From positions 1-64,000 of the forward strand of contig NZNW01000082.1 of NCBI GenBank assembly GCA_002695065.1: a DNA stretch of 64,000 nucleotides, given 5' to 3'. This document shows, one piece after another, positions 10,746 through 23,996 of this stretch. The notes under the pieces were generated by a model. It ran no database searches. It was not told the DNA's origin and saw nothing but the letters and a program-made list of their open reading frames with translations. Origin of the DNA: Salinicola sp. Lineage in GTDB: Bacteria; Pseudomonadota; Gammaproteobacteria; Pseudomonadales; Halomonadaceae. Position 1 is the stretch's first letter. Each line of letters starts with the position of its first letter. The translations under genes were made by a program, and so were the position numbers.

Positions 10746-11381
10746 ATGGCTTTGCAACTCGGCGATACCGCCCCGGATTTCACCCAGGAGAGCACCGAAG
10801 GGCCGATCAACTTCCACCAGTGGGCCGGCGACAGCTGGGTCATCCTGTTCTCCCATCCGGCCGACTTCACCCCGGTCTGCACCACCGAACTCGGCGAGGT
10901 CTCGCGCCTCAAGCCGGAGTTCGAGCGCCGCAACACCAAGGCGATCGGCCTCTCCGTCGACCCGCTGGACGACCACCAGCGCTGGGTCGGCGATATCGAA
11001 GAGACCCAGGGCTGTGGGCTCAACTTTCCGTTGCTGGCCGATGCCGACCGCTCGGTGAGCGAGGCCTATGGCATGATCCATCCCAACGCCAGCGGCACCA
11101 ACACCGTGCGTTCGGTATTCATCATCGATCCGGCGAAGAAGGTGCGCCTGACCATCACCTATCCGCCCAGTACCGGCCGCAACTTCGCCGAGATCCTGCG
11201 CGTGCTCGACAGCCTGCAGCTGACCGACAGCCACAAGGTTGCCACGCCGGTGAACTGGCAGGATGGCGACGACGTGATCATCGTGCCGTCGATCGACAAC
11301 GAAAAGGCCAAGGAACTCTTCCCCAACGGCTGGGACGAGAAGAAGCCCTACCTTCGCGTGACCAAGCAGCCCAACAAGTGA
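10746..11381 (+). CDS. 1-Cys peroxiredoxin (Prx6 type)
   Basis: A 211-residue thiol peroxidase. The peroxidatic Cys45 is in PADFTPVCTTE, with the Prx6-type C-terminal domain (DGDDVIIVPS, then PYLRVTKQP). Length and the absence of a resolving Cys in the C-terminal domain fit the 1-Cys class that reduces hydrogen peroxide and alkyl peroxides. A clear AGGAG site precedes the ATG, and a strong terminator lies some 90 bases after the stop, so it is probably monocistronic. Confidence 0.93.
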   Translation: MALQLGDTAPDFTQESTEGPINFHQWAGDSWVILFSHPADFTPVCTTELGEVSRLKPEFERRNTKAIGLSVDPLDDHQRWVGDIEETQGCGLNFPLLADADRSVSEAYGMIHPNASGTNTVRSVFIIDPAKKVRLTITYPPSTGRNFAEILRVLDSLQLTDSHKVATPVNWQDGDDVIIVPSIDNEKAKELFPNGWDEKKPYLRVTKQPNK

Positions 11382-11468
11382 TCGCCACGGCAGCGTCGCG
11401 GTGACGCGATTCAATACGCTGTCGATCGAAACGGTGTCGGCTAGAAACGATGCCGGCCAGAAACGACG

Positions 11469-11500
11469 ACGCCCGCACTCGAAAGAGCGCGGGCGTTTTT
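11469..11500 (+). terminator. Rho-independent terminator after the peroxiredoxin gene
   Basis: The stem ACGCCCGC (11469-11476) pairs with GCGGGCGT (11489-11496) and runs into TTTTT. The orientation suits the plus-strand peroxiredoxin transcript. Confidence 0.85.
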
Positions 11501-11571
11501 GGGTCACGGGAGAGTCAGCGGCGAGCGCGGCAACCAGGAGACACGCCATAGACGAGGTGTCTAGGCCCGAA

Positions 11572-12408
11572 TCAGGCGATGGTCCCGGGCTCGGGACGGG
11601 GACGCCATGCCAGAAGCGCCTCGACCAGGGCCTTCAACAGCGCCTGCACCTGTGTCGCCTCTCGCTCCCGATAGGGGAAAGTCGTTGATGCCTCGATCAG
11701 ATCGGCCTCCCGCGGCTCCTCCATATAGGTCGCCTGGGAAAGCTCGAGCTGCACGGCGTGGACATCATCGCTCGGCATTCCGTAGTGACGGGTAATGAAG
11801 CCGCCCTTGAAACGCCCGTTGGTCACCCATGTGTAATCGGTCTGTGCGTCGCAGATCGCCTCGAGCCGGTCGCTCAAGGTGGGATCGCAACTCCCGCCAT
11901 CGTTGGTCCCGAGGTTGATGTCGGGCAACTGGCCGTCGAACAGCCTCGCCACCCGCGAGCGAATCGAGTGCGCGTCGAACAGCACCGCGTAGCCGAAGCG
12001 CCGGCGAAGACGCTCGAGCTCCTCGCTCAAAGCAGCGTGGTAAGGCCGCCAGACGTTTTCCAGCGCCCAGTCGCGCGCCGCTTTCGAAGGTTCGCACCCG
12101 CGCCGGTAGAGCGGCTCGCCGTCGAAGTCGACTTGCGGGAACAGGCCGGTGGTCGCGCCGGCATAGAGCGGCCTGTCGTCGGTGGAGCGATTGAGATCGA
12201 TCACGTAACGGGAGTATTCAGCCTGCAGCCGACTGACGCCGAGGTCATCGAGAAAATCGTAAAGCTGCGGAATGTGCCAGTCGGTGTCGATCAACGACAG
12301 CCCGCGGTCACTGAGCCCGGCTTCGACTTGCGGCGTCAGGCGAGTCCCGGCGTGGGGCATCGATACCAGTAAAGGGGTCGCTCCCCGGGTCAATTGGAAA
12401 CGGCTCAT
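11572..12408 (-). CDS. hutG: N-formylglutamate deformylase
   Basis: A 278-residue member of the N-formylglutamate amidohydrolase family, which releases glutamate and formate in the last step of the five-step histidine route. Family marks are [11 protein letters not shown] at the N-terminus, [10 protein letters not shown], the [10 protein letters not shown] block and DAHSIRS, which supplies a metal ligand. Its start overlaps the end of hutI by 4 bp (ATGA). Together with hutF in the same island it defines the formiminoglutamate to formylglutamate to glutamate branch, not the arginase-like HutG of the four-step pathway. Confidence 0.93.
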
Positions 12409-13610
12409 GCGCTGATCCTCTCTCCCTGGTGGAAGCGAATGCCGGGTAGCTGGCCGCCCAGCCAGTAGGCGAGTTCCGCCGGTCCGGTCACGTCCCAGGC
12501 AACCGCGTCAGCCACCTTGCCCACCTCGAGCGAGCCGTGGCTGGCGTCGATGCCGAGCGCCCTGGCCGCATTCAGCGTCACACCGGCCAGGGCTTCCTCC
12601 GGTGTCAGGCGGAACAACGTGCAAGCGAGATTCATCATCAGCCGCAGCGACAGCACCGGCGAGGTGCCGGGGTTGAGGTCACTGGCCAGCGCCATGGCGA
12701 CGCCGTGCTCGCGAAACGCCTCGATCGGCGGCACCCGGGTCTCCCGCAGCGTCAGAAACGCGCCGGGCAGCAGCACGGCGGTGGTGCCGCTGGCTGCCAT
12801 GGCCCGTGCATCGTCGTCGTTGGCGTACTCGACGTGATCGGCCGACAGCGCGCCGAACTCGGCCGCCAGCTGGCAGCCCCCCAGGCGCGACAGTTGCTCG
12901 GCGTGCAGCTTGACCGGCAGGCCGAGCCGGCGTGCCGTCTCGAATACCCGCCGCATCTGTGCCGGAGAAAACGCAATGCCCTCACAGAAGCCGTCGACGG
13001 CATCGATCAGCCCCTCTCCCGCCAGCGTCGGCAGGATCGTCTCGCACACCAGCTCGATGTAGTCATCGCTGCGCTCGGCATACTCCGGCGGCAGGGCGTG
13101 GGCGGCGAGGCAAGTCGTCTTTACCGTCACGGGCAGGCGTTTGCCCAGTTCGCGGGCGACCTGCAGCATGCGCCGTTCGCTGTCGAGATCGAGACCGTAG
13201 CCGGACTTGATCTCGAGCGTGGTAACGCCTTCGGCCAGCAGCAGCCGCGCTCGCGCTTCGGCACTCGCGTAGAGCGTCTCGAAGTCGGTCTCCCGGGTCG
13301 CTCTGACACTGCTGACGATCCCGCCGCCCTGACGTGCGATCGTCTCGTAGTCGACACCCTCCAGACGCTGCTGGAACTCACCGCTGCGGTCGCCCCCGAA
13401 CACGAGATGGGTGTGGCAGTCGATCAGCCCCGGCGTCAGCCAGCGACCACCGAGGTCGTGGATGGCATCGAACGCCTGCGCGGCCAGATCGTCGGCCTTG
13501 CCGATCCAGTCGATCCGCCCATCGACAATGACGAGAGCCGCGTCAGTGATGAGGGAGTAGCGGCCGTCAGCCATGGTAATGGCGTGACAGTGGTGCCAGA
13601 GCTGGGTCAT
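12405..13610 (-). CDS. hutI: Imidazolonepropionase
   Basis: A 401-residue amidohydrolase that opens 4-imidazolone-5-propionate to N-formimino-L-glutamate. Metal and substrate motifs are [16 protein letters not shown], the LHAEQLS histidine, ADHVEY and LASDLNPGT. It lies 30 bases after the hutH-like gene and overlaps hutG, within one minus-strand operon. Confidence 0.95.
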
Positions 13611-13640: not shown

Positions 13641-15200
13641 TTACGTCAGGGTGAGGGCGCGCGTTTCCGGCGGACCACTCAGGGTCGCCGCCACCGCCTC
13701 TGGGATCGCGGCGGAGCGCATCGCCGAGAAGGCTCGCTCGATATCCCGGGAGAGCGGATGCTCCTCCTCGTAGATGTCGACCAGGGCGCGCAGCCAGCGC
13801 CATGCCGCGCTGGTGCCGGTCGCGAAGCGCTCGCTCGGCAGCAGATCGAAGGCCTGCGCCGCGCACAGCCACTCGATGGCGATGATGCGAAAGGCGTTGT
13901 CCAGCGCGGCATCCAGCTTCAGCGCGGCGCTGTCGCCGAGGCTGAGGTGATCCTCCCGCAGTGCGGAAGTGAGGTAGTTGTCGATCACCGCCGGCTGCGC
14001 CAGGCGCTTGTTGTCGGCGGCGAGCGAAGCGGCCGTGTACTGCGCGATCATCAGCCCGGACTTCACCCCGCTCTCGGCGGAGAGAAACGGCGGCAGGCCA
14101 CTGTGAAGACCACTCACTTCGGGCGTCACGAGACGGTAGATGCGCCGCTCCGATATCGCGCTCCACTCCGCCACCGCCATCGCCAACTGGTCGCAGGCCA
14201 GGGCGATCGACTCGCCATGGGGATTGGCTTGCGAGACGACCCGGTAGCCTTCGGCGTTCTTCAGCAGCAAAGGATTGTCGGTGGCGCTGTTCAACTCGCG
14301 GTCGATCTGTTGTGCCGCGTGTGCCAGCTGGTCGCGACAGGCGCCGTGGACCTGAGGGATGGCACGCAGACTCAGGGCGTCCTGCAGGTGCCCGCCGCGT
14401 CGAGCAGCGAGCCACGGACTATCGTGCAGAAGCTCGCGCAGGGTGGCGCCGCAGATCTGCATCCCGAGCTGCGGCTTGAGCGCGAGGACATCGGCATCGA
14501 ACGCCGCCAGCTGGCCACCCAGCGCGTCGAAGCTCATCGCCGCGCCGACGTCCGCCCAGGCGCTCAAGCGATTGGCGCCATCCAGTGCCAGGCAGGCCAA
14601 CCCGGTCATGGCCGGGGTGCCATTGACCAGACTCAAGCCGTCCTTGGCGCCCAAGGTCACCGGCGCCTTGCCGATCCGCGCCAGCGCTGCTTCGGCGCTC
14701 ATGACGCCGCCCTCGTGGCGAACCTCGCCGATGCCGATCATCGCCAGGCCGATATGCGCCATGTGGGTGAGATACCCCACCGACCCCTGTCCCGGCACCA
14801 CCGGCGTCACCCCATGGTTGAGAAAGTCGAGGAGCCGCTCGACGATCTGGGGACTGATGCCCGAATGACCGTGGCTGTAATTGACCACGGCGGTCGCCAT
14901 GATCGCGCGCACCTGATCGTCGCGCAGGGGGTCGCCGACGCAACAGGCGTGACTCATCAGGGTGTGGTAGGAGAGACGCTGGAGCTGGTCCGGCGCCAGG
15001 CGCACGTGGCAGAGCGCACCGAGGCCGGTATTGATGCCGTAATAACGCGTCTCCTCCCGAGCGAACGCCTCCACGGCCTGGCGAGCCTCTCGGACCCTGG
15101 CCCAGCGCCCTTCATGGAGCGCCAGCTGCGCGCCATGGCAGGCCACGTCGACGATGGCGCGCCAGGAAACTGTCTCGTTGCCAAGCGTGACGGTCTTCAT
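13641..15200 (-). CDS. HutH-like aromatic amino-acid lyase fold protein lacking the MIO triad
   Basis: A 519-residue protein clearly of the histidine/phenylalanine ammonia-lyase fold. It has YYGINTGLG near residue 53, His84 in MSHA, Asn193 in VNGT, Arg279 in SLR, and Glu416 in REDHLS. The Ala-Ser-Gly that cyclises to the MIO electrophile in canonical HutH (GSVG-ASG-DLAPL) is absent. Here GSVG (139-142) runs straight into YLTHMAH, with no ASG anywhere in this segment. The residue matching Tyr280 of the Pseudomonas putida enzyme is Leu276, and the Phe329 site reads NPH. It sits where hutH should sit, between the BCCT carrier and hutI. The chemistry is therefore uncertain: a lyase for a substrate with a better leaving group, or an inactive paralogue. 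Confidence 0.85.
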   Translation of the reverse strand: MKTVTLGNETVSWRAIVDVACHGAQLALHEGRWARVREARQAVEAFAREETRYYGINTGLGALCHVRLAPDQLQRLSYHTLMSHACCVGDPLRDDQVRAIMATAVVNYSHGHSGISPQIVERLLDFLNHGVTPVVPGQGSVGYLTHMAHIGLAMIGIGEVRHEGGVMSAEAALARIGKAPVTLGAKDGLSLVNGTPAMTGLACLALDGANRLSAWADVGAAMSFDALGGQLAAFDADVLALKPQLGMQICGATLRELLHDSPWLAARRGGHLQDALSLRAIPQVHGACRDQLAHAAQQIDRELNSATDNPLLLKNAEGYRVVSQANPHGESIALACDQLAMAVAEWSAISERRIYRLVTPEVSGLHSGLPPFLSAESGVKSGLMIAQYTAASLAADNKRLAQPAVIDNYLTSALREDHLSLGDSAALKLDAALDNAFRIIAIEWLCAAQAFDLLPSERFATGTSAAWRWLRALVDIYEEEHPLSRDIERAFSAMRSAAIPEAVAATLSGPPETRALTLT

Positions 15201-15204
15201 CGCC

Positions 15205-16806
15205 TCAACCCTCGATCGCCGGTGTGGAGCCGCTGGCCGCGTCCTCGGGCAGCGTCGTGGCGATGGCGCTTTCACGTCCGTAGATCAGCGCCTTGACGCT
15301 CGCGGCGAGCACGAGAACGAACAGGAACACCACGAAGAAGCCACCCGCCGCCGCGAGATACTTGATGCCATCGACGCCCTGCTCGCCACCCCCGAAGGCA
15401 ACCATGACGTAGGCGATGACGCTGATCGACACGCCCCACAGAATCTTCTGGAAGGTGGGCGATTCATCCTCGGCGGTCATACCACGAGTACAGATCGTGG
15501 CGATGGTCGCCGACATGGAATCCGCTGCCGTGGCGAACGACAGAATCAGCGCCAGAATCGTGGCCGGCACCAGCAACCAGGCCAGCGGCAGTTGATGCAG
15601 AAAGCCCCACAAGCCAGCTACGGCGCCATCCTGATCGATGATCGAGGCCAGATCGAGCGTGCCGTCCAATTGCCACTTGATCGCACTGCCGCCCCAGACC
15701 GTGAACCAGACGATGCCGAAGATCGCCGGCAGAACCCAGTTGATCATCAGAAATTCGCGCAGCGTCCGCCCGTAGGAGATGCGCGCCAGGAACAGGCCCA
15801 TCAGCGGCGCGTAGGCGATCCAGATCGACCAGTCGTACATCGTCCACCAGGTCACCAGCGCTTCACCGCCCAGCTCCTTGGTGTCGAAAGACCAGGTGAA
15901 GAAGTTGTTCAGCCAATAGCCGATACTGGTGGTGGACAGATTCAGCATGTAGACCACCGGCCCGATGATCAGCAACAGAGCCAGCATGCCGTAGTAGAGA
16001 TAAGCGTTCAGCGAAGACAGGTAGCGGATGCCGCGCTTGAGCCCCGAAACCGAGGAGGCAATGAAAATCACCGTGATGATGGCCACCAGCACCAGCCAGG
16101 TCGTCGGGCCAACGCTGATGCCGTATTCCTCCTGCACCCCTGAGCCGATCAGAGCGACGCCGGCGCCCAGCGACGACGCCAGACCGAGCGCAATCGCCAG
16201 AACCGAGACGATGTCGATGATGGCGGTGACCGTCGGTCGACGGTGATGATCGCCGATGATCGGCGAGATGGCTGCCGAAATGGAGAACCGTTGGCGTCGG
16301 TTGTAGTGCATGTAGGCGATCATCATGCCGACCACGGCGTACATGGCGTAGGGAATGAAGCTCCAGTTGTGGAAGCTGCGCGCCAGCGCGAAAACCGCCG
16401 ACTCGCCGCTACCCGGCGCGAAGCCCTGATTGTCGATTTCACCGTAGACGTTACCCATGTAGATGATGGGTTCGTTGACGGCGTAGGTCACGACTCCCGT
16501 CGCAATACCGCCGGTCAGCGCCATCGCGAAGGTCGACATCAGCGAGAATTTCGGCTTCGCATCCGGCCCGCCGAGACGAATATTGCCCACCTTCGAGCAG
16601 AAGACGTATCCGACCACGGCCAGGGCCGACACGGCGACCAGTTGATAGAGCCAGGCGAAGTCGGAGAGCGTCAGGTAGAAAATATCCTGTGTGACGTCGA
16701 TCAGCAGTTCGTTGTCGACCAGACCGATGATCGCGGCGACGGCAACGATCAAGAAGGTCGGGATGAACACGCTGAGCTTGATGCTTCTCGGTGCGGGTTT
16801 TGACAT
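15205..16806 (-). CDS. BCCT-family transporter of the hut island
   Basis: A 533-residue, about 12-helix secondary carrier of the betaine/choline/carnitine family. The Trp-rich core helix (WWTMYDWSIWIAYAPLMG) and the following LARISYGRTLREF are the family signature. The third-helix glycine motif reads GGIATG, not the usual GMGIG, so the sodium or substrate site may differ from glycine-betaine carriers. It ends 4 bases before the hutH-like gene, and hutU is upstream on the same strand, so it probably imports the substrate of this pathway. BCCT carriers favour quaternary-amine zwitterions, which makes a betaine of histidine a reasonable guess. The ATG at 16806 has an AGGG site 8 bases away. Confidence 0.88.
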   Translation of the reverse strand: MSKPAPRSIKLSVFIPTFLIVAVAAIIGLVDNELLIDVTQDIFYLTLSDFAWLYQLVAVSALAVVGYVFCSKVGNIRLGGPDAKPKFSLMSTFAMALTGGIATGVVTYAVNEPIIYMGNVYGEIDNQGFAPGSGESAVFALARSFHNWSFIPYAMYAVVGMMIAYMHYNRRQRFSISAAISPIIGDHHRRPTVTAIIDIVSVLAIALGLASSLGAGVALIGSGVQEEYGISVGPTTWLVLVAIITVIFIASSVSGLKRGIRYLSSLNAYLYYGMLALLLIIGPVVYMLNLSTTSIGYWLNNFFTWSFDTKELGGEALVTWWTMYDWSIWIAYAPLMGLFLARISYGRTLREFLMINWVLPAIFGIVWFTVWGGSAIKWQLDGTLDLASIIDQDGAVAGLWGFLHQLPLAWLLVPATILALILSFATAADSMSATIATICTRGMTAEDESPTFQKILWGVSISVIAYVMVAFGGGEQGVDGIKYLAAAGGFFVVFLFVLVLAASVKALIYGRESAIATTLPEDAASGSTPAIEG

Positions 16807-16923
16807 TTTTATACCCTGAAATGAAGGTTTAGAACGGCGCGTAAGCCCACGACGAGTGGGTGATATCAGCAGTCGGGGTCTCGCGGGAACCGGCACCCCG
16901 ATGCGGCTGCCGGCCCGAATGCG

Positions 16924-18591
16924 TTACTTGACCATCGGCAGGTCAAGCCCCTGCTCCCTGGCGCAATCGATGGCGATGTCATAACCCGCGTCGGCATGAC
17001 GCATGACGCCGGTGGCCGGGTCGTTGTGCAGAACCCGGGCGATGCGGCGCGCCGCGTCGTCGCTGCCGTCACAGACGATCACCATGCCAGCGTGCTGAGA
17101 GAAGCCCATGCCGACGCCGCCGCCATGATGGAGCGAGACCCAGGTGGCACCGCTGGCAGTGTTGAGGAGGGCGTTGAGCAGCGGCCAGTCGGAGACGGCG
17201 TCGGAGCCATCCTTCATGCTCTCGGTTTCCCGGTTGGGGCTGGCCACCGAACCGGAGTCGAGATGGTCCCGTCCGATGACCACTGGCGCGGAGAGCTCGC
17301 CGCTACGCACCATTTCATTGAACGCCAGCCCCAGCTTCTCGCGCAGGCCCAGACCCACCCAGCAGATACGCGCCGGCAGCCCCTGGAAGCTGATGCGCTC
17401 TCGTGCCATGTCGAGCCAGCGATGCAGGTGCGCGTCATCGGGAATCAGTTCCTTCACCTTGGCATCGGTCTTGTAGATGTCCTGCGGATCGCCGGACAGC
17501 GCGGCCCAGCGGAACGGGCCAATGCCCCGGCAGAACAGCGGCCGGATATAGGCGGGAACGAAGCCTGGGAAGTCGAAGGCGTTGGCAACGCCCTCCTCCT
17601 GCGCCATCTGGCGGATGTTGTTGCCGTAGTCGAAGGTGGGGATGCCCTGCTCGGCAAACGCCAGCATGGCGCGCACATGTTCGGCCATCGACGCCTTGGC
17701 CGCCTTGACCACCGCCTGCGGCTCGGTCTTGCCACGCGCGCGATAGTCCTCCCAGCGCCAACCGGCAGGCAGGTAACCGTTGAGCGGATCGTGGGCACTG
17801 GTCTGGTCGGTGACCATGTCCGGGCGTGCGCCACGGCGTACCAGTTCAGGCAGAATTTCAGCCGCATTACCGTGCAGGGCGATGGAAACCGCCTTGCCTT
17901 CGGCGGTGTAGCGCTCTATCCGGGCCAGGGCATCGTCCAGATCTTCCGCCTGTTCGTCGACATAGCGCGTACGCAGGCGAAAGTCGATACGTGATTGCTG
18001 GCACTCGATGTTGAGCGAACAGGCGCCCGCCAACGTTGCCGCCAGCGGCTGCGCGCCGCCCATCCCGCCGAGCCCCGCCGTCAGGATCCAGCGCCCGGCG
18101 AGCCTGCCGTCGTAATGCTGGCGCCCGGCCTCGACGAACGTCTCGTAGGTCCCTTGAACGATGCCCTGGGAGCCGATGTAGATCCACGAGCCCGCGGTCA
18201 TCTGGCCGTACATCATCAGCCCCTTGGCATCGAGCTCGTTGAAATGCTCCCAGTCGGCCCAGTGTGGAACCAGGTTGGAGTTGGCAATCAGAACCCGCGG
18301 CGCATCGGCATGCGTCCTGAACACGCCGACCGGCTTGCCCGACTGCACCAACAGTGTTTCATCCGTCTCGAGCGTTTTCAGCGTGGCAACGATCGCATCG
18401 AAACATTCCCAATCGCGTGCCGCGCGGCCGATGCCGCCATAGACGACCAGTTCCTTCGGGTTCTCGGCCACGTCCGGGTCGAGGTTGTTCATCAGCATGC
18501 GCATCGGCGCCTCGGTCAACCAGCTCTTGGCAGTCAACGTCGAACCGTGGGGGGCGCGAATGTCGATATCACGAAAACGAGAATGAGTCAT
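16924..18591 (-). CDS. hutU: Urocanate hydratase
   Basis: A 555-residue urocanase, the usual length, that hydrates urocanate to imidazolonepropionate using tightly bound NAD. The classical blocks are all present: [45 protein letters not shown], the FDYGNNIR segment, the active-site [10 protein letters not shown], and [11 protein letters not shown] near the C-terminus. Nothing suggests an altered substrate, so the pathway intermediate should be urocanate itself. It is the first gene of the minus-strand hut operon, and its promoter region carries two HutC-type palindromes. Confidence 0.96.
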
Positions 18592-18849: not shown

Positions 18850-20211
18850 ATGCCAAAGACCTACTTCGCCACTGCCGCGCTACTGCCCGACGGATGGCGA
18901 CACGACGTCCGGATCCGTGTCGATGATCGAGGATTCATCGACAACGTGACCGCCGATGCCACTGCAGACGAGGCGGAACGCCTCGGCGGACCCGTGCTGC
19001 CCGGCATGCCCAACCTCCACTCTCACGCCTTTCAGCGCGCCATGGCCGGTGTCGCCGAGATCGCCTCTGACAAGGCGGACAGTTTCTGGAGCTGGCGTAA
19101 CCACATGTATGGCCTGGTGGATCGCCTCACACCTGAAGACGTGGGCGTTATCGCCCGCGCACTCTACGTCGAGCTGCTCAGAGGGGGCTACACCCAAGTC
19201 GGCGAGTTCCACTATCTGCATCACGATCCGCAGGGCCACGCCTATGCCGACCCGGCGACGATGTCGCATGCCTTGCTGGAAGCGGCGGATGCCAGTGGAA
19301 TCGGCATGACCTTGCTGCCGGTACTCTACGCCCACAGCGATTTTGGCGGTCAACCACCCAGCAACGGCCAGCGGCGTTTCATCCACTCGCCGGAAACCTA
19401 CCTCGAATTACTGGCGCAGCTCACACCACGGTGCTCCGAGAACCCGCGTCTGTGCCTGGGCACGGCGCTGCACTCGCTCCGCGCGGTGACGCTCGAGGAG
19501 ATCGAAACGGTGCTTGCAGCCAATCCCGCCGGCCCGCGTCACATCCACATCTCCGAACAGGTGAAAGAGGTCGAGGCAAGCATCGCCTGGAGCGGCCAAC
19601 GTCCCGTCCAGTGGCTGCTGGACAACGTCGAGCTCGATTCAAGGTGGTGTCTGATTCATGCCACCCATCTCGACGACGCCGAAGTGCGGGGTATTGCCGC
19701 CAGCGGTGCCGTGGTCGGTCTCTGCCCCACCACCGAAGCCAACCTCGGCGACGGTGTCTTCCCCGCGGCGCGTTACGCTGAGCTAGACGGGCGCTGGGGC
19801 ATCGGCTCGGACAGTCACGTCTCGCGGAATGTGGTCGAGGAGCTGCGGTGGCTCGAATACGGTCAGCGTCTGATGACACAACGGAGGAACGTACTGCACG
19901 ACGTCGAGCGGAGAGGGGTAGGCGATTGGCTCTACCGACAGGCGGTGACCGGCGGCGCCCTCGCCTCGGGGCAGCCGATTGGAGAATTGGCGGTCGGCAA
20001 GCGCGCCGACTGGCTCGTGCTCGATGGGCAAGATCCCGATCTCGCCGCCAGCGACGACGCCTCACGCCTCGGGCGTTGGCTGTTCGGGGGGGCCCGCTCG
20101 CAGATTCGCGACGTCATGGTCGCCGGTCACTGGCAAATCCGTGATCGCCGGCATGCGCTGGATGACGTCAATCGACGCGAACTGGGTGCACTGCTCAAAA
20201 CACTCGCCTGA
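18850..20211 (+). CDS. hutF: Formimidoylglutamate deiminase
   Basis: A 453-residue amidohydrolase that converts N-formimino-L-glutamate to N-formyl-L-glutamate and ammonia, the step that distinguishes the five-step hut pathway. Motifs are PGMPNLHSHAFQRAMAG (metal His pair), HIHISEQ, LIHATHLD and IGSDSHVS. AGGGAC precedes the ATG. It is divergent from hutU across 258 bp holding two HutC-type sites, and it is followed after 57 bp by the YjiH-type carrier. Confidence 0.94.
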   Translation: MPKTYFATAALLPDGWRHDVRIRVDDRGFIDNVTADATADEAERLGGPVLPGMPNLHSHAFQRAMAGVAEIASDKADSFWSWRNHMYGLVDRLTPEDVGVIARALYVELLRGGYTQVGEFHYLHHDPQGHAYADPATMSHALLEAADASGIGMTLLPVLYAHSDFGGQPPSNGQRRFIHSPETYLELLAQLTPRCSENPRLCLGTALHSLRAVTLEEIETVLAANPAGPRHIHISEQVKEVEASIAWSGQRPVQWLLDNVELDSRWCLIHATHLDDAEVRGIAASGAVVGLCPTTEANLGDGVFPAARYAELDGRWGIGSDSHVSRNVVEELRWLEYGQRLMTQRRNVLHDVERRGVGDWLYRQAVTGGALASGQPIGELAVGKRADWLVLDGQDPDLAASDDASRLGRWLFGGARSQIRDVMVAGHWQIRDRRHALDDVNRRELGALLKTLA

Positions 20212-20268: not shown

Positions 20269-21585
20269 ATGGATACGACCGACAAGCCTTTCGAGCCCAC
20301 GCTGCGGACACGGGCAAAAATGATCATGCCGAGCGTACTCGGCATTCTCATCTTCTTCGTTCCGATATCGATCGCCGGTACCCGCACGATACTGCTCGAT
20401 CATCTGGTGACGGCCATTCGTCATGGGCTTGGCTCCAGCGTCAATTTACTCGCGCTGGCCGTTATCGTCGCCGGGGCCATCCATCCGCTCTACACCGGAC
20501 GCTGGCGCCAGAGCCGAACCGAAGCCGTTCTGACGCTCTTCAAGGTGATGGGTACGCTGGTCGCGGGCATGGCGATCAGCGGCATCGGCCCAGAGGCACT
20601 GTTCGCACCGGACATGCTGCCTTTTCTGTTCGATAAACTGGTGATCTCGGTGGGCTTGATCGTTCCCGTCGGCGCAGTCTTTCTGGCGTTGCTGATCAAC
20701 TACGGGCTCATGGAGAGCGTCGGCGTGCTATGTCAGCCGTTGATGCGTCCGCTATGGCGTACGCCGGGGCGATCGGCAATCGACGCGGTGGCGTCTTTCG
20801 TCGGCAGTTACTCGATCGGGCTACTGATTACCAACCGGGTGTACCGGGCCGGACGATATTCGGCACGCGAAGCGGCCATCATCGCCACGGGTTTCTCGAC
20901 CGTCTCGGCCACCTTCATGATCATCGTCGCCAGAACGCTCGACTTGATGGCGATCTGGAATCTCTACTTCTGGCTCACCCTACTGATCACGTTCATCGTT
21001 ACCGCCATCAGTGTACGGTTGCCGCCGCTGGCGCGGATGGATGATCGCGTGGCGGTCGCGGAGGCGAAGACATTTTCCGGCTCTCGTCTACGCCATGCCT
21101 GGGAAGAAGGCCTCAAGGCAGCGGACCGCGCGCCCCGACTCGGCGAAAGCGTCGTGACCAACCTGAAGGAAGGCCTGCTGATGACCATGAGTATTCTCCC
21201 GACCATTCTGTCGGTGGGCTTGCTCGGACTGCTGCTGGCCAAATACACGCCGGTGTTCGAATGGCTGGGCCTTCTGTTCTATCCGCTGATCGCGCTGTTC
21301 GGACTGGAGGAAGCGCGAGAGCTATCCCAGGCAGTGGCGTCCGGCATGGCGGAGATGTTTCTGCCCGCCCTGTTGATGGCGGATGCCTCGTTGCCGGCGC
21401 GTTTCGCTGCTGGGGTCGTGTCGGTATCGACGATCCTTTTCTTCTCCGCGTCCATTCCCTGCATCATGTCGACGCAGATCCCGCTGTCGGTGGGAAAAAT
21501 CCTGGTGATCTGGTTTCAGCGCACATTCCTGAGTGTGGCGCTTGCGGTTCCCGCCGGCTATCTCGTCGCTGCCTGGGTCAGTTGA
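20269..21585 (+). CDS. YjiH-type membrane protein (nucleoside-transporter Gate domain)
   Basis: A 438-residue integral membrane protein with about nine or ten hydrophobic helices. The glycine-rich GLLITNRVYRAGRYSAREAAIIATGFSTVSATFM segment (residues of about 185-220) and the second gate-like repeat near the C-terminus place it in the YjiH/Gate-domain group related to concentrative nucleoside carriers. The substrate is not known from sequence. Its position in the plus-strand hutF transcript, between hutF and the convergent hutC, suggests it moves histidine, urocanate or a related imidazole compound. I cannot tell import from export. Confidence 0.8.
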   Translation: MDTTDKPFEPTLRTRAKMIMPSVLGILIFFVPISIAGTRTILLDHLVTAIRHGLGSSVNLLALAVIVAGAIHPLYTGRWRQSRTEAVLTLFKVMGTLVAGMAISGIGPEALFAPDMLPFLFDKLVISVGLIVPVGAVFLALLINYGLMESVGVLCQPLMRPLWRTPGRSAIDAVASFVGSYSIGLLITNRVYRAGRYSAREAAIIATGFSTVSATFMIIVARTLDLMAIWNLYFWLTLLITFIVTAISVRLPPLARMDDRVAVAEAKTFSGSRLRHAWEEGLKAADRAPRLGESVVTNLKEGLLMTMSILPTILSVGLLGLLLAKYTPVFEWLGLLFYPLIALFGLEEARELSQAVASGMAEMFLPALLMADASLPARFAAGVVSVSTILFFSASIPCIMSTQIPLSVGKILVIWFQRTFLSVALAVPAGYLVAAWVS

Positions 21586-21609: not shown

Positions 21610-22326
21610 TCAAGCCGTTGGTGCGTGCGCCATGGAACGCAGCTTGTAACGGTCACCGGGATGGATGAGATGCGCGTAGCTGATCAGGCGATCGCCGGAC
21701 CAGGTGCGCCGTCGAACGCTCAGACACGGCATGGCTTCTGCGACATCGAGTTGCAGGGCGATCTCGATGTCAGGGAGGATCGCCTCGACGATATGTTCCA
21801 TATCGCTGATAGGACAAGCCGCTACCAGTACCTCATTGGGCGTGTGGCGGTGGAAGTCAGCGTCCAGGTAGGCCGGCACCCAACGCGGGTTGACGTAACG
21901 ATTCTCCAACTGGATCGGCCGACCATTCTCGAGATGAATCAGGCGCGAGTGATAGAGCCTGGTGCCGACCTTGACCCCCATGCGCATGGCAATCTCGTCG
22001 TCAGCCACAACGCTCTCCAATGTCAGCACACGGCTGGCATATTCGTGACCGCGTCCCCGCACCTCGTCGGCGATGTTGTTGATCTCGACCAGTGGCGATT
22101 CGGAGCGGCGATCGGCGACGAAAGTGCCGATACCCGACTGGCGCCAGAGATACCCCTCCTGCACCAGGTCGCGGATCGCTTTATTGGCGGTCATGCGACT
22201 GACGCCGAATGTCTCCGCCAGCGCCTCCTCTGGCGGGATCTGGTGGTCCACGGGAAACTCACCGCTATGGATCCTGTCGAGCAGATACTGCTTGATAACT
22301 TTATAACGTGGAGGCTGGGGGCTCAC
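21610..22326 (-). CDS. hutC: Histidine utilisation repressor HutC
   Basis: A 238-residue GntR/HutC-family repressor. The winged helix occupies residues 1-75 (PPEEALAETFGVSRMTANKAI is the recognition region), followed by a UTRA effector domain with a LIHLENGRPIQLENRYVN strand pair typical of urocanate-responsive HutC. Three TGTATATACA-type palindromes occur in the island, at the hutU/hutF promoters and before the binding-protein gene. Its start overlaps the end of hutD by 4 bp. Confidence 0.93.
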   Translation of the reverse strand: MSPQPPRYKVIKQYLLDRIHSGEFPVDHQIPPEEALAETFGVSRMTANKAIRDLVQEGYLWRQSGIGTFVADRRSESPLVEINNIADEVRGRGHEYASRVLTLESVVADDEIAMRMGVKVGTRLYHSRLIHLENGRPIQLENRYVNPRWVPAYLDADFHRHTPNEVLVAACPISDMEHIVEAILPDIEIALQLDVAEAMPCLSVRRRTWSGDRLISYAHLIHPGDRYKLRSMAHAPTA

Positions 22327-22952
22327 TTACGCTCCTTTGATGATAGCTGTGCCGGGTAGATCGCGATCAGAAAACCGGCAACGGACGTGTCTGCCAGAAA
22401 CGTAGGCGCAGAGGCATCGAAGCATCGTTCGTTGCGCCTCGCGGGATGGCTTTTCAAAACCAGCGTATCGCCTGCCATCCAGGTACATCCGCCCTGACTC
22501 GGCTGCGTCGGGCAGGCGGCCAGTACGAACCAAGCCGCCTCACAACCTTTGGGGCAGACGACGTCATCCCAGTGGCACGGCTTCATGCTGCCATCCCATC
22601 GCGCTGGATCGAACATCAGGTTCAGCGCCAGGCTGGGGCCTTCTGGCAAGCGGCAGTCGACAGGTTCGCCTCCAGAGAAAACGACCGACTCAGCGAGCGA
22701 TAGCCCAACCTCGCGGTCACCGAAGGCCAGCGTGACGGGATGACGACCAAGCACGCCAAAGCAGCGCTGCCAACCGCTGAAAGAAGAGAACGGGCCGGCC
22801 CGGTCCAGATCGGCAATCGAAAGGCGCCAGCCGGGCTCGCTGGCACTGGCATCGCATGCCACTTCACGAGTCGTACCACCACCATTCTTCCAGCGCACCG
22901 CCTCCAGATTGCGCCATGGCAAGCAGTGAACGGTTTCCAGCGACAAGGTCAT
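22323..22952 (-). CDS. hutD: HutD/Ves family cupin protein
   Basis: A 209-residue bicupin of the HutD/Ves family. The motif WKNGGGTTREV near the N-terminus is diagnostic, followed by the RLSIADLDRAGPFSSF block. HutD is conserved in hut clusters and is thought to modulate pathway output, possibly by binding formylglutamate. A catalytic role is not established. I chose the ATG at 22952 because family members start just before the LPW...NGGG segment. In-frame ATGs at 22979 and 23000 are possible alternatives. It is cotranscribed with hutC. Confidence 0.88.
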   Translation of the reverse strand: MTLSLETVHCLPWRNLEAVRWKNGGGTTREVACDASASEPGWRLSIADLDRAGPFSSFSGWQRCFGVLGRHPVTLAFGDREVGLSLAESVVFSGGEPVDCRLPEGPSLALNLMFDPARWDGSMKPCHWDDVVCPKGCEAAWFVLAACPTQPSQGGCTWMAGDTLVLKSHPARRNERCFDASAPTFLADTSVAGFLIAIYPAQLSSKERK

Positions 22953-23034
22953 ACGCGTCTCGATCCGATAGTGGGTCATCTGTTTCAGCCGCGCTTGCAT
23001 GACACGGCTGACACGATGGTCGAAGCATTGAAAT

Positions 23035-23050
23035 TAATGTATATACATTA
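23035..23050. promoter_or_regulatory. HutC-type operator, strongest copy
   Basis: The perfect 16-bp palindrome TAATGTATATACATTA is centred in the 177-bp gap between hutD and the binding-protein gene. It can control the divergent hutDC transcript, the binding protein, or both. It is the longest perfect copy of the motif in the window. Confidence 0.8.
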
Positions 23051-23129
23051 TATAAACATTCGACGCGTGACCCCAGTCACTACCGTACCTTTTCAGACAA
23101 CAACATCAATAAACCAAAAAGGATGTCGC

Positions 23130-23996
23130 ATGTCCCCTTTCAAAAATCTACTGGTCGGTGGCGGTCTCCTCATCGCCGGCATGAGCATGAGTGCCGTGAG
23201 CGCGGCGAATCCCCCCATTACCATCGGTACCAACAACTGGGCCGAGAATATCGCCATTTCCCACATGTGGCAGCAACTGCTCGGTGAAAAGGGATTCGAT
23301 GTCTCGCTCAGCGAAGTCTCCAAGCCGATCCTGTTCGGCGGGCTGGCGGCGGGCGATATCGACATCTCGCTGGAAGTCTGGCTGCCGAGCGACAATTCGT
23401 TCGTCGAACCCTACAGCGATCGCATCGATCTCCACGGCACCTGGTACGACGATGCGCTCGACGCGCTAGTCGTGCCATCCTACGTCGACGATATCAATTC
23501 CGTTGCCGATCTCGAGCGTCATGCCGAGGATTTCGAGTATCAGGGCGAGCCGACGATCTTCGGCATCGAGCCCGGCTCGACCATCGCCGACGAGACCGAC
23601 GCTGCCATCGAACAGTATCGACTGCCATTCCGTCAGCTCAGCAGCAGCGAATCGGCGATGATGGCCCAGCTCAAGGAAGCCTATCGCGAGAAGCAGCCGG
23701 TTGCCGTCACCCTGTGGCAACCGCACTGGGCATTCGCCGAGTACGATCTGAAGATTCTCGACGATCCGAAGAAGACCTTCAGCGCCGGCGAGCAGATCAA
23801 GTGGGTATCGCACCACGGTTTCGGCGATGACAACCCCGGGCTCAAGGCGATGCTGGATGCCTGGCACATGACACCGGAACAGCTGTCCCAGTTGATGCTG
23901 GAAATCGAGAACACGGGCGACCCGGACAAGGGTGCGGCACAGTGGATCGCCGCCAACCGCGATCTCGTCGATGGCTGGCTCGCCGCCAGGCCATAA
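23130..23996 (+). CDS. Orphan glycine-betaine/histidine-type ABC substrate-binding protein (OpuAC domain)
   Basis: A 288-residue periplasmic binding protein with a signal peptide (residues 1-25, cleavage near VSA-AN). The OpuAC/ProX-type domain follows. Several Trp residues in the expected ligand-cage places (GTNNWAEN, LEVWLPS, VTLWQPHW) point to a cationic or quaternary-amine ligand. In other bacteria this type serves betaines, choline or, as HutX, histidine. No ATPase or permease gene is adjacent, and a perfect terminator follows, so it stands alone under a HutC-type site. I chose the ATG at 23130 (AAGGAT ribosome site). The frame is open upstream without coding character. Confidence 0.88.
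   Translation: MSPFKNLLVGGGLLIAGMSMSAVSAANPPITIGTNNWAENIAISHMWQQLLGEKGFDVSLSEVSKPILFGGLAAGDIDISLEVWLPSDNSFVEPYSDRIDLHGTWYDDALDALVVPSYVDDINSVADLERHAEDFEYQGEPTIFGIEPGSTIADETDAAIEQYRLPFRQLSSSESAMMAQLKEAYREKQPVAVTLWQPHWAFAEYDLKILDDPKKTFSAGEQIKWVSHHGFGDDNPGLKAMLDAWHMTPEQLSQLMLEIENTGDPDKGAAQWIAANRDLVDGWLAARP

Follow-up and report, generated by a model that had tools for sequence, protein, structure and literature searches.

The stretch analyzed here, in the following called the window, consists of 64,000 nucleotides from the genome of a Salinicola sp. and carries a histidine utilization (hut) operon. The subject of this study is one gene of that operon, which encodes a lyase resembling histidine ammonia-lyase (HAL, HutH) but lacking the Ala-Ser-Gly triad that forms the 4-methylideneimidazole-5-one (MIO) cofactor. 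The gene and its diagnostic sites are listed below, with counts from the alignments described further on.

13641..15200, reverse strand: MIO-less HAL-like lyase, predicted hercynine trimethylamine-lyase (519 amino acids; stop codon 13641-13643; PF00221, 516.6 bits)
14754..14786, reverse strand: GSVGYLTHMAH, where the Ala-Ser-Gly (MIO) triad is missing (GS[VA]GYLxH in 106/106 clade rows)
14373..14375, reverse strand: Leu276 at the catalytic Tyr280 position (Leu in 106/106 clade rows, Tyr in 30/30 MIO rows)
14220..14222, reverse strand: Pro327 at the Phe329 position (Pro 59, Ala 46 and Cys 1 of 106 clade rows)

A histidase homologue without its cofactor triad

The open reading frame (ORF) gives a translation of 519 residues with zero internal stops and lies in the order hutU-BCCT-lyase-hutI-hutG, all on the reverse strand, so that the gene is intact and, as far as shared strand and short gaps indicate, part of an operon, as the original prediction had stated. 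The protein matches the whole domain of PF00221, which places it in the aromatic amino acid lyase superfamily (cut-off 27.3 bits). It stays under both NCBIfam hutH cut-offs (493.9 against 539.15 bits and 513.7 against 524 bits), compared to 736 and 766 bits for a canonical HutH (L100) with the same two models.

The residues GSVG (139-142, bases 14786-14775) are followed directly by Tyr143 (14774-14772) and the rest of YLTHMAH, while the HutH of Pseudomonas putida reads GSVG-ASG-DLAPLAH, three residues more. The loss of the triad and the residue numbers had been predicted correctly; the base positions, given as about 14766-14786, had to be corrected to 14754-14786 for the motif. Alignment with the P. 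putida HutH fragment leaves three empty columns, which can be placed as loss of ASG with a change of D to Y, or as loss of SGD with a change of A to Y, and because neither placement leaves a residue equivalent to Ser143, MIO cannot form. The string ASG did not occur anywhere in the 519 residues, so a shift of the triad to another place in the protein can be dismissed. The window lyase thus lacks the Ala/Ser-Ser-Gly triad that defines the MIO-dependent ammonia-lyases acting on histidine, phenylalanine and tyrosine (HAL/PAL/TAL).

The lyase shares with P. putida HutH (PDB 1b8f and mutants) the fold, the hut operon setting and several active-site residues, here given with the HAL number in brackets: Tyr54 (Tyr53), His84 (His83), Asn193 (Asn195), Gln273 (Gln277), Arg279 (Arg283) and Glu416 (Glu414). 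It differs, in addition to the missing triad, by the changes Tyr280 to Leu, Phe329 to Pro and Pro148 to His. The retained Asn193, Arg279 and Glu416 and the changes at 280 and 329 had been anticipated and were borne out by the alignment. In P. putida HAL, Asn195, Arg283, Glu414, Tyr53 and His83 hold the carboxylate and the imidazole, and Tyr280 is the catalytic residue that works together with MIO. An AlphaFold2 model of the monomer (pLDDT 90, pTM 0.92) was most similar to HAL in a Foldseek search (1gkj and 1b8f; TM-scores 0.89/0.92, 36% identity), with the ergothionase structure 6s7j at rank 14. We ruled out gene decay or sequencing error as the origin of the missing triad, since S. corii and S. 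lusitanus have genes 99% and 94% identical to it and the pattern recurs across the clade.

A clade of lyases lacking MIO

Relatives were collected by a scan of genome contigs (the best 80 named loci of a longer list) and by a family search that added 30. The first alignment held 130 rows, of which 70 were without the triad (67 distinct), 58 had ASG or SSG, and two were on the ergothionase side, namely the ergothionase of Treponema denticola (6s7j) and a homologue from S. corii. Addition of 38 Pseudomonadaceae rows (46 read, from 38 genomes) and omission of two near-copies gave a second alignment with 106 clade rows, 105 of them distinct. Some genes were fetched repeatedly (L003/L084/L127, L004/L086 and L005/L099/L122), and the counts are of loci and not of independent events.

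All 70 triad-less rows of the first alignment had GS[VA]GY---LxH and Leu at position 280, as opposed to Tyr280 in all 58 rows with ASG or SSG. The second alignment repeated this pattern: each of its 106 clade rows lacks the three residues and has Tyr at 142, His at 148 and Leu at 280. Phe329, present in 29 of the 30 MIO rows (the single Ala being the P. putida row, which is the PDB mutant F329A), was replaced throughout, and the remaining HAL active-site residues were kept across the clade. The 106 rows formed a single clade (SH-aLRT 99) with 6s7j and the S. corii homologue outside, although the trees are quick trees and the two ergothionase-side rows sit on long branches whose exact placement is unsure. 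The clade is a MIO-less HutH-like subfamily in its own right, and the loss of the triad together with the change of Tyr280 to Leu and the conserved Tyr and His of the loop in all rows points to selection rather than to decay.

Nine additional loci were read by motif only, all with GS[VA]GYLxH, eight with DxLSLR and one (L257) with VDPISLR. The L257 lyase (genome G1060) has GSAGYLTHNAH, and according to this motif reading without alignment the Tyr280 site may be occupied by Ile and not by Leu.

The hut operon and the comparison with ergothionase

The other genes of the locus were recognized as follows.

15205..16809, reverse strand: BCCT-family transporter, predicted betaine-substrate importer (TIGR00842 308 bits and betaine_BCCT 333 bits, both below cut-off; BetP is the best PDB match)
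16924..18591, reverse strand: hutU, urocanate hydratase (TIGR01228 1015 bits, cut-off 375)
12405..13610, reverse strand: hutI, imidazolonepropionase (TIGR01224 474 bits, cut-off 298)
11572..12408, reverse strand: hutG, N-formylglutamate deformylase (TIGR02017 364 bits, cut-off 279)
18850..20211, forward strand: hutF, formimidoylglutamate deiminase, divergent (TIGR02022 647 bits, cut-off 413)
20269..21585, forward strand: Gate-domain (YjiH-like) membrane protein of hut loci (PF07670 55 bits, cut-off 29.6)
21610..22326, reverse strand: HutC repressor (TIGR02018 285 bits, cut-off 220)
22323..23000, reverse strand: HutD (PF05962 93.9 bits, cut-off 25)
22740-23996, forward strand: OpuAC-type (choline/betaine) binding protein beside hutD (true start probably inside the ORF)

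Among the ORFs listed after the OpuAC gene no permease or ATPase was recognized by eye. Matches of the Gate-domain protein also adjoin canonical hut operons in Halomonadaceae.

The HutU of the window scored 684 and 704 bits with two thiourocanate hydratase models, below their cut-offs of 930 and 880, and judged by these profiles it is a true urocanate hydratase. We therefore expect the lyase to yield urocanate and to act on hercynine, not on ergothioneine.

Ergothionase functions without MIO and releases trimethylamine, according to PMC13405746, in line with what the original prediction had supposed of these enzymes when it suggested an ergothionase-type lyase or a second HutH-like subfamily. 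The window lyase resembles the T. denticola ergothionase (6s7j, 6s7q) in lacking MIO, in having Leu at 280 (found in the S. corii homologue also) and in its fold. The differences are several: ergothionase is on a different branch; its loop (SSIGE-GDI) is one residue shorter than that of HutH, whereas the lyase loop (GSVG-Y---L) is three shorter; HAL position 195 is Ser in 6s7j and Asn in the lyase; and the QKT motif has Lys in both ergothionase-side rows (IQKT, VQKT), in contrast to Tyr in the lyase (AQYT). The substrate of ergothionase is a C2-sulfur compound. The numbering of the ergothionase lysine as Lys384 did not fit the count made here, which gave Thr at 384, and the residue is referred to by its motif.

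Ergothionase proper was rejected as an identity for the window lyase because of the separate branch, the different loop, the residue in the QKT motif and the type of HutU. That the substrate might still be a C2-sulfur histidine betaine, making the enzyme an ergothionase or ergothioneine-sulfonate trimethylamine-lyase, is suggested by the shared fold, cofactor loss and Leu at 280, and by the ergothionase which PMC13405746 reports for Agrobacterium radiobacter, a group with clade members (L037, L068). In addition to the separate branch, the missing Lys and the type of HutU, this alternative is made distinctly unlikely by S. corii, which has a separate ergothionase-like gene adjoining its hut operon with an OsmF-type binding protein after it. 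It seems that the ergothionase-type guess was probably right in mechanism and wrong in substrate: the distinct MIO-less subfamily stands, and elimination of trimethylamine would be the best fit to it.

The S. corii gene (within L003:13993-20633; 6s7j is the best PDB match, 1e-75) lies between hutG and a peroxiredoxin gene, and the island following it contains, besides the OsmF-type betaine binding protein, an ornithine cyclodeaminase-like gene and ABC (ATP-binding cassette) transporter-like genes recognized by eye. The gap 11381-11572 of the window has no such island.

Occurrence in Salinicola and other bacteria

We compared 18 Salinicola genomes, S. corii and S. lusitanus included; the source genome is 96% complete, and the HutH/lyase match listing reaches down to about E 1e-41, a level that canonical HutH exceeds by far. 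Seven of them have hutU, six with the lyase and one (G134) with canonical HutH, and G043 has both enzymes; in the 11 genomes without hutU neither the lyase nor canonical HutH was found. Five genomes thus combine hutU and the lyase with no canonical HutH match, leaving the lyase as the sole candidate feeding HutU. This, together with the position of the lyase beside HutC in hut operons, would be expected if the enzyme were a MIO-independent histidine ammonia-lyase and simply the HutH of Salinicola. However, a canonical HutH match (36-40%) is found also in 12 of the 17 clade-positive Halomonadaceae genomes (MIO motif read in 10 of the 12), and the lyase is therefore not simply a replacement. No pertinent literature on growth of Salinicola on histidine was found among the matches listed.

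In G043 two hut clusters occur on one contig (L125, L126), one being hutF-hutU-lyase-hutI without BCCT and the other HutH-hutF-hutU-hutI-hutG with a terminal ergothionase-like lyase. The other PF00221 gene of the source genome (L001, G000:C145) was considered as the real HutH and rejected. Although its MIO triad is present, it lies on a separate contig away from hut genes, reaches 372.8 bits against the hutH cut-off of 539 and has Gln at Glu414. It scores 412 bits with the BagA/FevW tyrosine ammonia-lyases (cut-off 1000) and lies near an ORF that resembles purL by eye. By search score, a similarly weak match occurs in 8 of the 11 Salinicola genomes that lack hutU. Hercynine made by the cell itself was considered and rejected, the EgtD-like gene (hercynine biosynthesis) of the source genome being in broken pieces (G000:C113:13588-14369), as is egtD in G003 and G131; full matches are found in 3 of the 18 genomes (G043, G087 and G124).

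The lyase was present in 17 of 201 Halomonadaceae genomes (plus a broken fragment in G197) and in 67 of 248 Pseudomonadaceae genomes, whose matches reached 688 bits or more while the next one had 464; the motif was read in 38 of the 67. A phylum sample gave 16 of 299 genomes (at least 687 bits; next-best 469) and a class-wide sample 2 of 369 (at least 729 bits; next 476), where the Pseudomonadaceae member G362, found through OprF, was without a detected lyase. The clade spans alpha-, beta- and gammaproteobacteria, with Salinicola, Halomonas, Paracoccus, Rhodoferax, Paraburkholderia, Caballeronia, Labrys, Rhizobium, Mesorhizobium, Ensifer/Sinorhizobium, Leisingera and Thalassospira as hosts among the loci listed. 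An Erwinia plasmid carries the gene too, and among 30 plasmid records listed, those naming the gene call it histidine ammonia-lyase.

Loss of the defining cofactor of the superfamily could also mean a catalytically dead HutH paralogue, i.e. a pseudoenzyme with a binding or regulatory role, or a decaying gene, and two copies elsewhere do have an in-frame stop (one TGA in G571:C2:1606926-1608407; one TAG in the partial copy G197:C28:68693-69343). Against this stand the invariant new Tyr and His and the retained substrate-binding residues in all 106 rows, the spread over three proteobacterial classes and the five genomes with no other lyase, which makes inactivity the least probable of the explanations considered.

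Importers beside the lyase

Importers of three kinds only (BCCT, OpuAC and the histidine-type ABC binding protein SBP_bac_3) were searched within 4 kb of each locus. In Halomonadaceae, a BCCT gene was found at 16 of 17 clade loci compared to none of 21 loci that carry canonical HutH alone (from 20 chosen lyase-free genomes, plus the second hut locus of G043); at one control, L131, a weak BCCT match lies about 8 kb from HutH. In Pseudomonadaceae, all 16 loci chosen from the 67 positive genomes had an importer (12 OpuAC, 3 BCCT, 1 SBP_bac_3), against 2 of 20 chosen HutH-only controls. The third group, the remaining loci among the best 80, had an importer at 41 of the 51 loci listed (36 SBP_bac_3, 3 OpuAC, 2 BCCT) and at none of 27 controls, which are weaker than the two family-level controls, being mostly from distant phyla and some having short flanks. 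L005 and L122 were counted in two of the groups.

The type of the nearest importer, labelled for 67 of the 106 rows, switches four times on the lyase tree, and the BCCT branch unites Halomonadaceae, Paracoccus and three Pseudomonadaceae. A BCCT-lyase pair lies between hutU and canonical HutH in G136, G156, G035, G105, G664, G741 and G725, after HutH in G142, and in G176 with no hut gene seen around it in the 20 kb fetched. It looks as if the BCCT-lyase pair travels together.

The 19 clade-linked BCCT copies that were read share the signature LVTWWT[ML]YDWSIWIAYAPLMG in transmembrane segment 8 (TM8), and the five BCCT paralogues of the source genome are at most 37% identical to the operon BCCT. 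Compared to the BetP segment YWAWWISW, whose tryptophans form the betaine box, one box tryptophan is kept and the others are Ile and Tyr, with an Asp nearby. We infer an altered betaine site, into which a betaine whose ring is cationic would fit well. BCCT and ProU-like importers favor quaternary amines. EgtUC, a quaternary-amine ABC binding domain, is able to bind histidine betaines, according to PMC9732360.

A SolA-like N-methyl amino acid oxidase gene (e.g. L051:11489-12643; NF008425 422 bits, cut-off 257) follows the lyase at 16 of the 53 clade loci listed, in rhizobia and Thalassospira, which suggests that partly methylated histidines are used too. It would also fit a lyase for another N-alpha-methylated (mono- or dimethyl) or methylated-imidazole histidine, but a ring-methylated form would need a modified urocanate hydratase and would still lose ammonia, and the known preference of the BCCT and ProU-like carriers speaks for a quaternary amine, so that such a substrate is very unlikely for the window lyase.

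HutH1 of Pseudomonas and HutH2 of Sinorhizobium

For P. fluorescens SBW25, PMC8871633 gives the layout hutU-hutTu-hutXWV-hutH1-hutH and describes HutH1 as dispensable for growth on histidine. In the Pseudomonas loci L212, L219 and L220 the order is hutU, OpuAC, ATPase, lyase and HutH, with a gap on either side of OpuAC and the motif GSVGYLTHMAH in the lyase, and by gene layout these loci fit the arrangement described. The Pseudomonadaceae rows of the clade are 54-62% identical to the window lyase and mostly have an ABC importer instead of BCCT.

In Sinorhizobium meliloti Ak57 the order is hutC, hutF, a substrate-binding protein, a proline/glycine betaine ABC permease, an ATPase and the lyase, with the motif GSVGYLTH. 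Both Ak57 and 4H41 have a betaine-type ABC importer followed by the HutH-like gene, as the hutXWV-hutH2 operon reportedly has, and judging by layout the Ak57 gene may be the published hutH2. The S. meliloti clade member is 48-49% identical to the window lyase, and the Ensifer/Sinorhizobium loci L027, L028 and L047 fall within the clade along with the 38 Pseudomonadaceae rows. The HutH-like gene lies directly beside betaine-type importer genes in the hut locus, as is characteristic of HutH1/HutH2-type genes, and judging by the operons, the window lyase appears to be the enzyme known as HutH1 in Pseudomonas and as HutH2 in S. meliloti. Boncompagni and colleagues are said to have found in 2000 that the S. 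meliloti HutXWV carries histidine, proline betaine and glycine betaine. Histidine betaine as the natural substrate would unite this transport with the dispensability of HutH1.

Discussion

Considering sequence, operon and importers together, it is probable that the window lyase is a MIO-independent hercynine trimethylamine-lyase feeding the Hut pathway. Hercynine (N,N,N-trimethylhistidine, histidine betaine) would be imported by the adjacent BCCT carrier, trimethylamine would be eliminated by acid/base catalysis to give trans-urocanate, and this would be converted to glutamate via HutU, HutI, HutF and HutG. HAL depends on the electrophilic MIO to activate its substrate for the departure of ammonia. 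Trimethylamine is already a leaving group, so MIO would be dispensable and an elimination without it feasible, as ergothionase shows for ergothioneine. The enzyme would have evolved from histidine ammonia-lyase, once as far as the tree shows, losing Tyr280 along with its partner MIO, while the residues predicted to hold carboxylate and imidazole would have stayed. The change of Phe329 to Pro or Ala could make room for the trimethylammonium head, and the best candidates for acid/base catalysis are Tyr143 and His146, newly invariant in the shortened loop.

Several observations weigh against this interpretation. The structural model is of a monomer and lacks the active site of the tetramer, and its residues 409-416 have low confidence. 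The commonest importer of the third group, at 36 of the 51 loci listed, is of the histidine/arginine type and not the betaine type, and ten of the 51 have none of the three importer kinds within 4 kb; two of these ten have another OpuAC-type ABC system (L068 by Pfam, L037 by similar layout only), leaving eight. The stretch fetched around the G043 lyase has no BCCT, and the importer found within 4 kb at the 2 of 20 Pseudomonadaceae HutH-only loci is an OpuAC gene. In the source genome no clear candidate for trimethylamine monooxygenase was found, only two weak partial PF00743 matches. No clade member assayed on hercynine was found in the sources consulted, and among the open-licence papers matched and listed, as judged by title and start of abstract, there was no hercynine-degrading enzyme or hercynine lyase. 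Finally, growth on histidine was reportedly slowed by about 30% in the hutH2 mutants of Boncompagni and colleagues, and the operon was reportedly induced by histidine, which is readable as histidase activity.

The latter phenotype and the many relatives with a histidine/arginine-type ABC importer are also the points which, beside the five Salinicola genomes, favor a MIO-independent histidine ammonia-lyase. By established HAL chemistry, loss of MIO abolishes most of the activity, ammonia being a poor leaving group. Betaine-type importers prevail in Halomonadaceae and at 15 of the 16 Pseudomonadaceae loci read, many clade-positive Halomonadaceae have a canonical HutH match as well, and Pseudomonas can do without HutH1 on histidine (PMC8871633), so that we regard a histidase without MIO as unlikely.

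For the family as a whole, we think it rather likely that a widespread proteobacterial group annotated as HAL consists of MIO-free hercynine trimethylamine-lyases which lost MIO independently of ergothionase. Together with dedicated importers (BCCT with the YDWSIWIAY TM8 box, HutXWV, or a histidine-type ABC system), it would form a histidine-betaine entry to the Hut pathway, with hercynine as a source of carbon, nitrogen and trimethylamine, and would explain the spare HutH1/HutH2 and the betaine transport by HutXWV. The fold and the logic of catalysis without MIO are known; the separate loss of MIO, the different predicted substrate, and the wide and probably misannotated family would be new.

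If this is true, a gene labelled histidase in well-studied pseudomonads, rhizobia and Burkholderiaceae has another function, which would account for the second 'histidase' that several well-studied soil bacteria carry. It would be the second natural case of an aromatic amino acid lyase working without the hallmark cofactor, the breakdown of hercynine would have a defined pathway, and soil, sea and rhizosphere would have a further enzyme that releases trimethylamine. An old question, why a betaine transporter is found in a hut operon and a HutH is dispensable on histidine, is thereby made testable.

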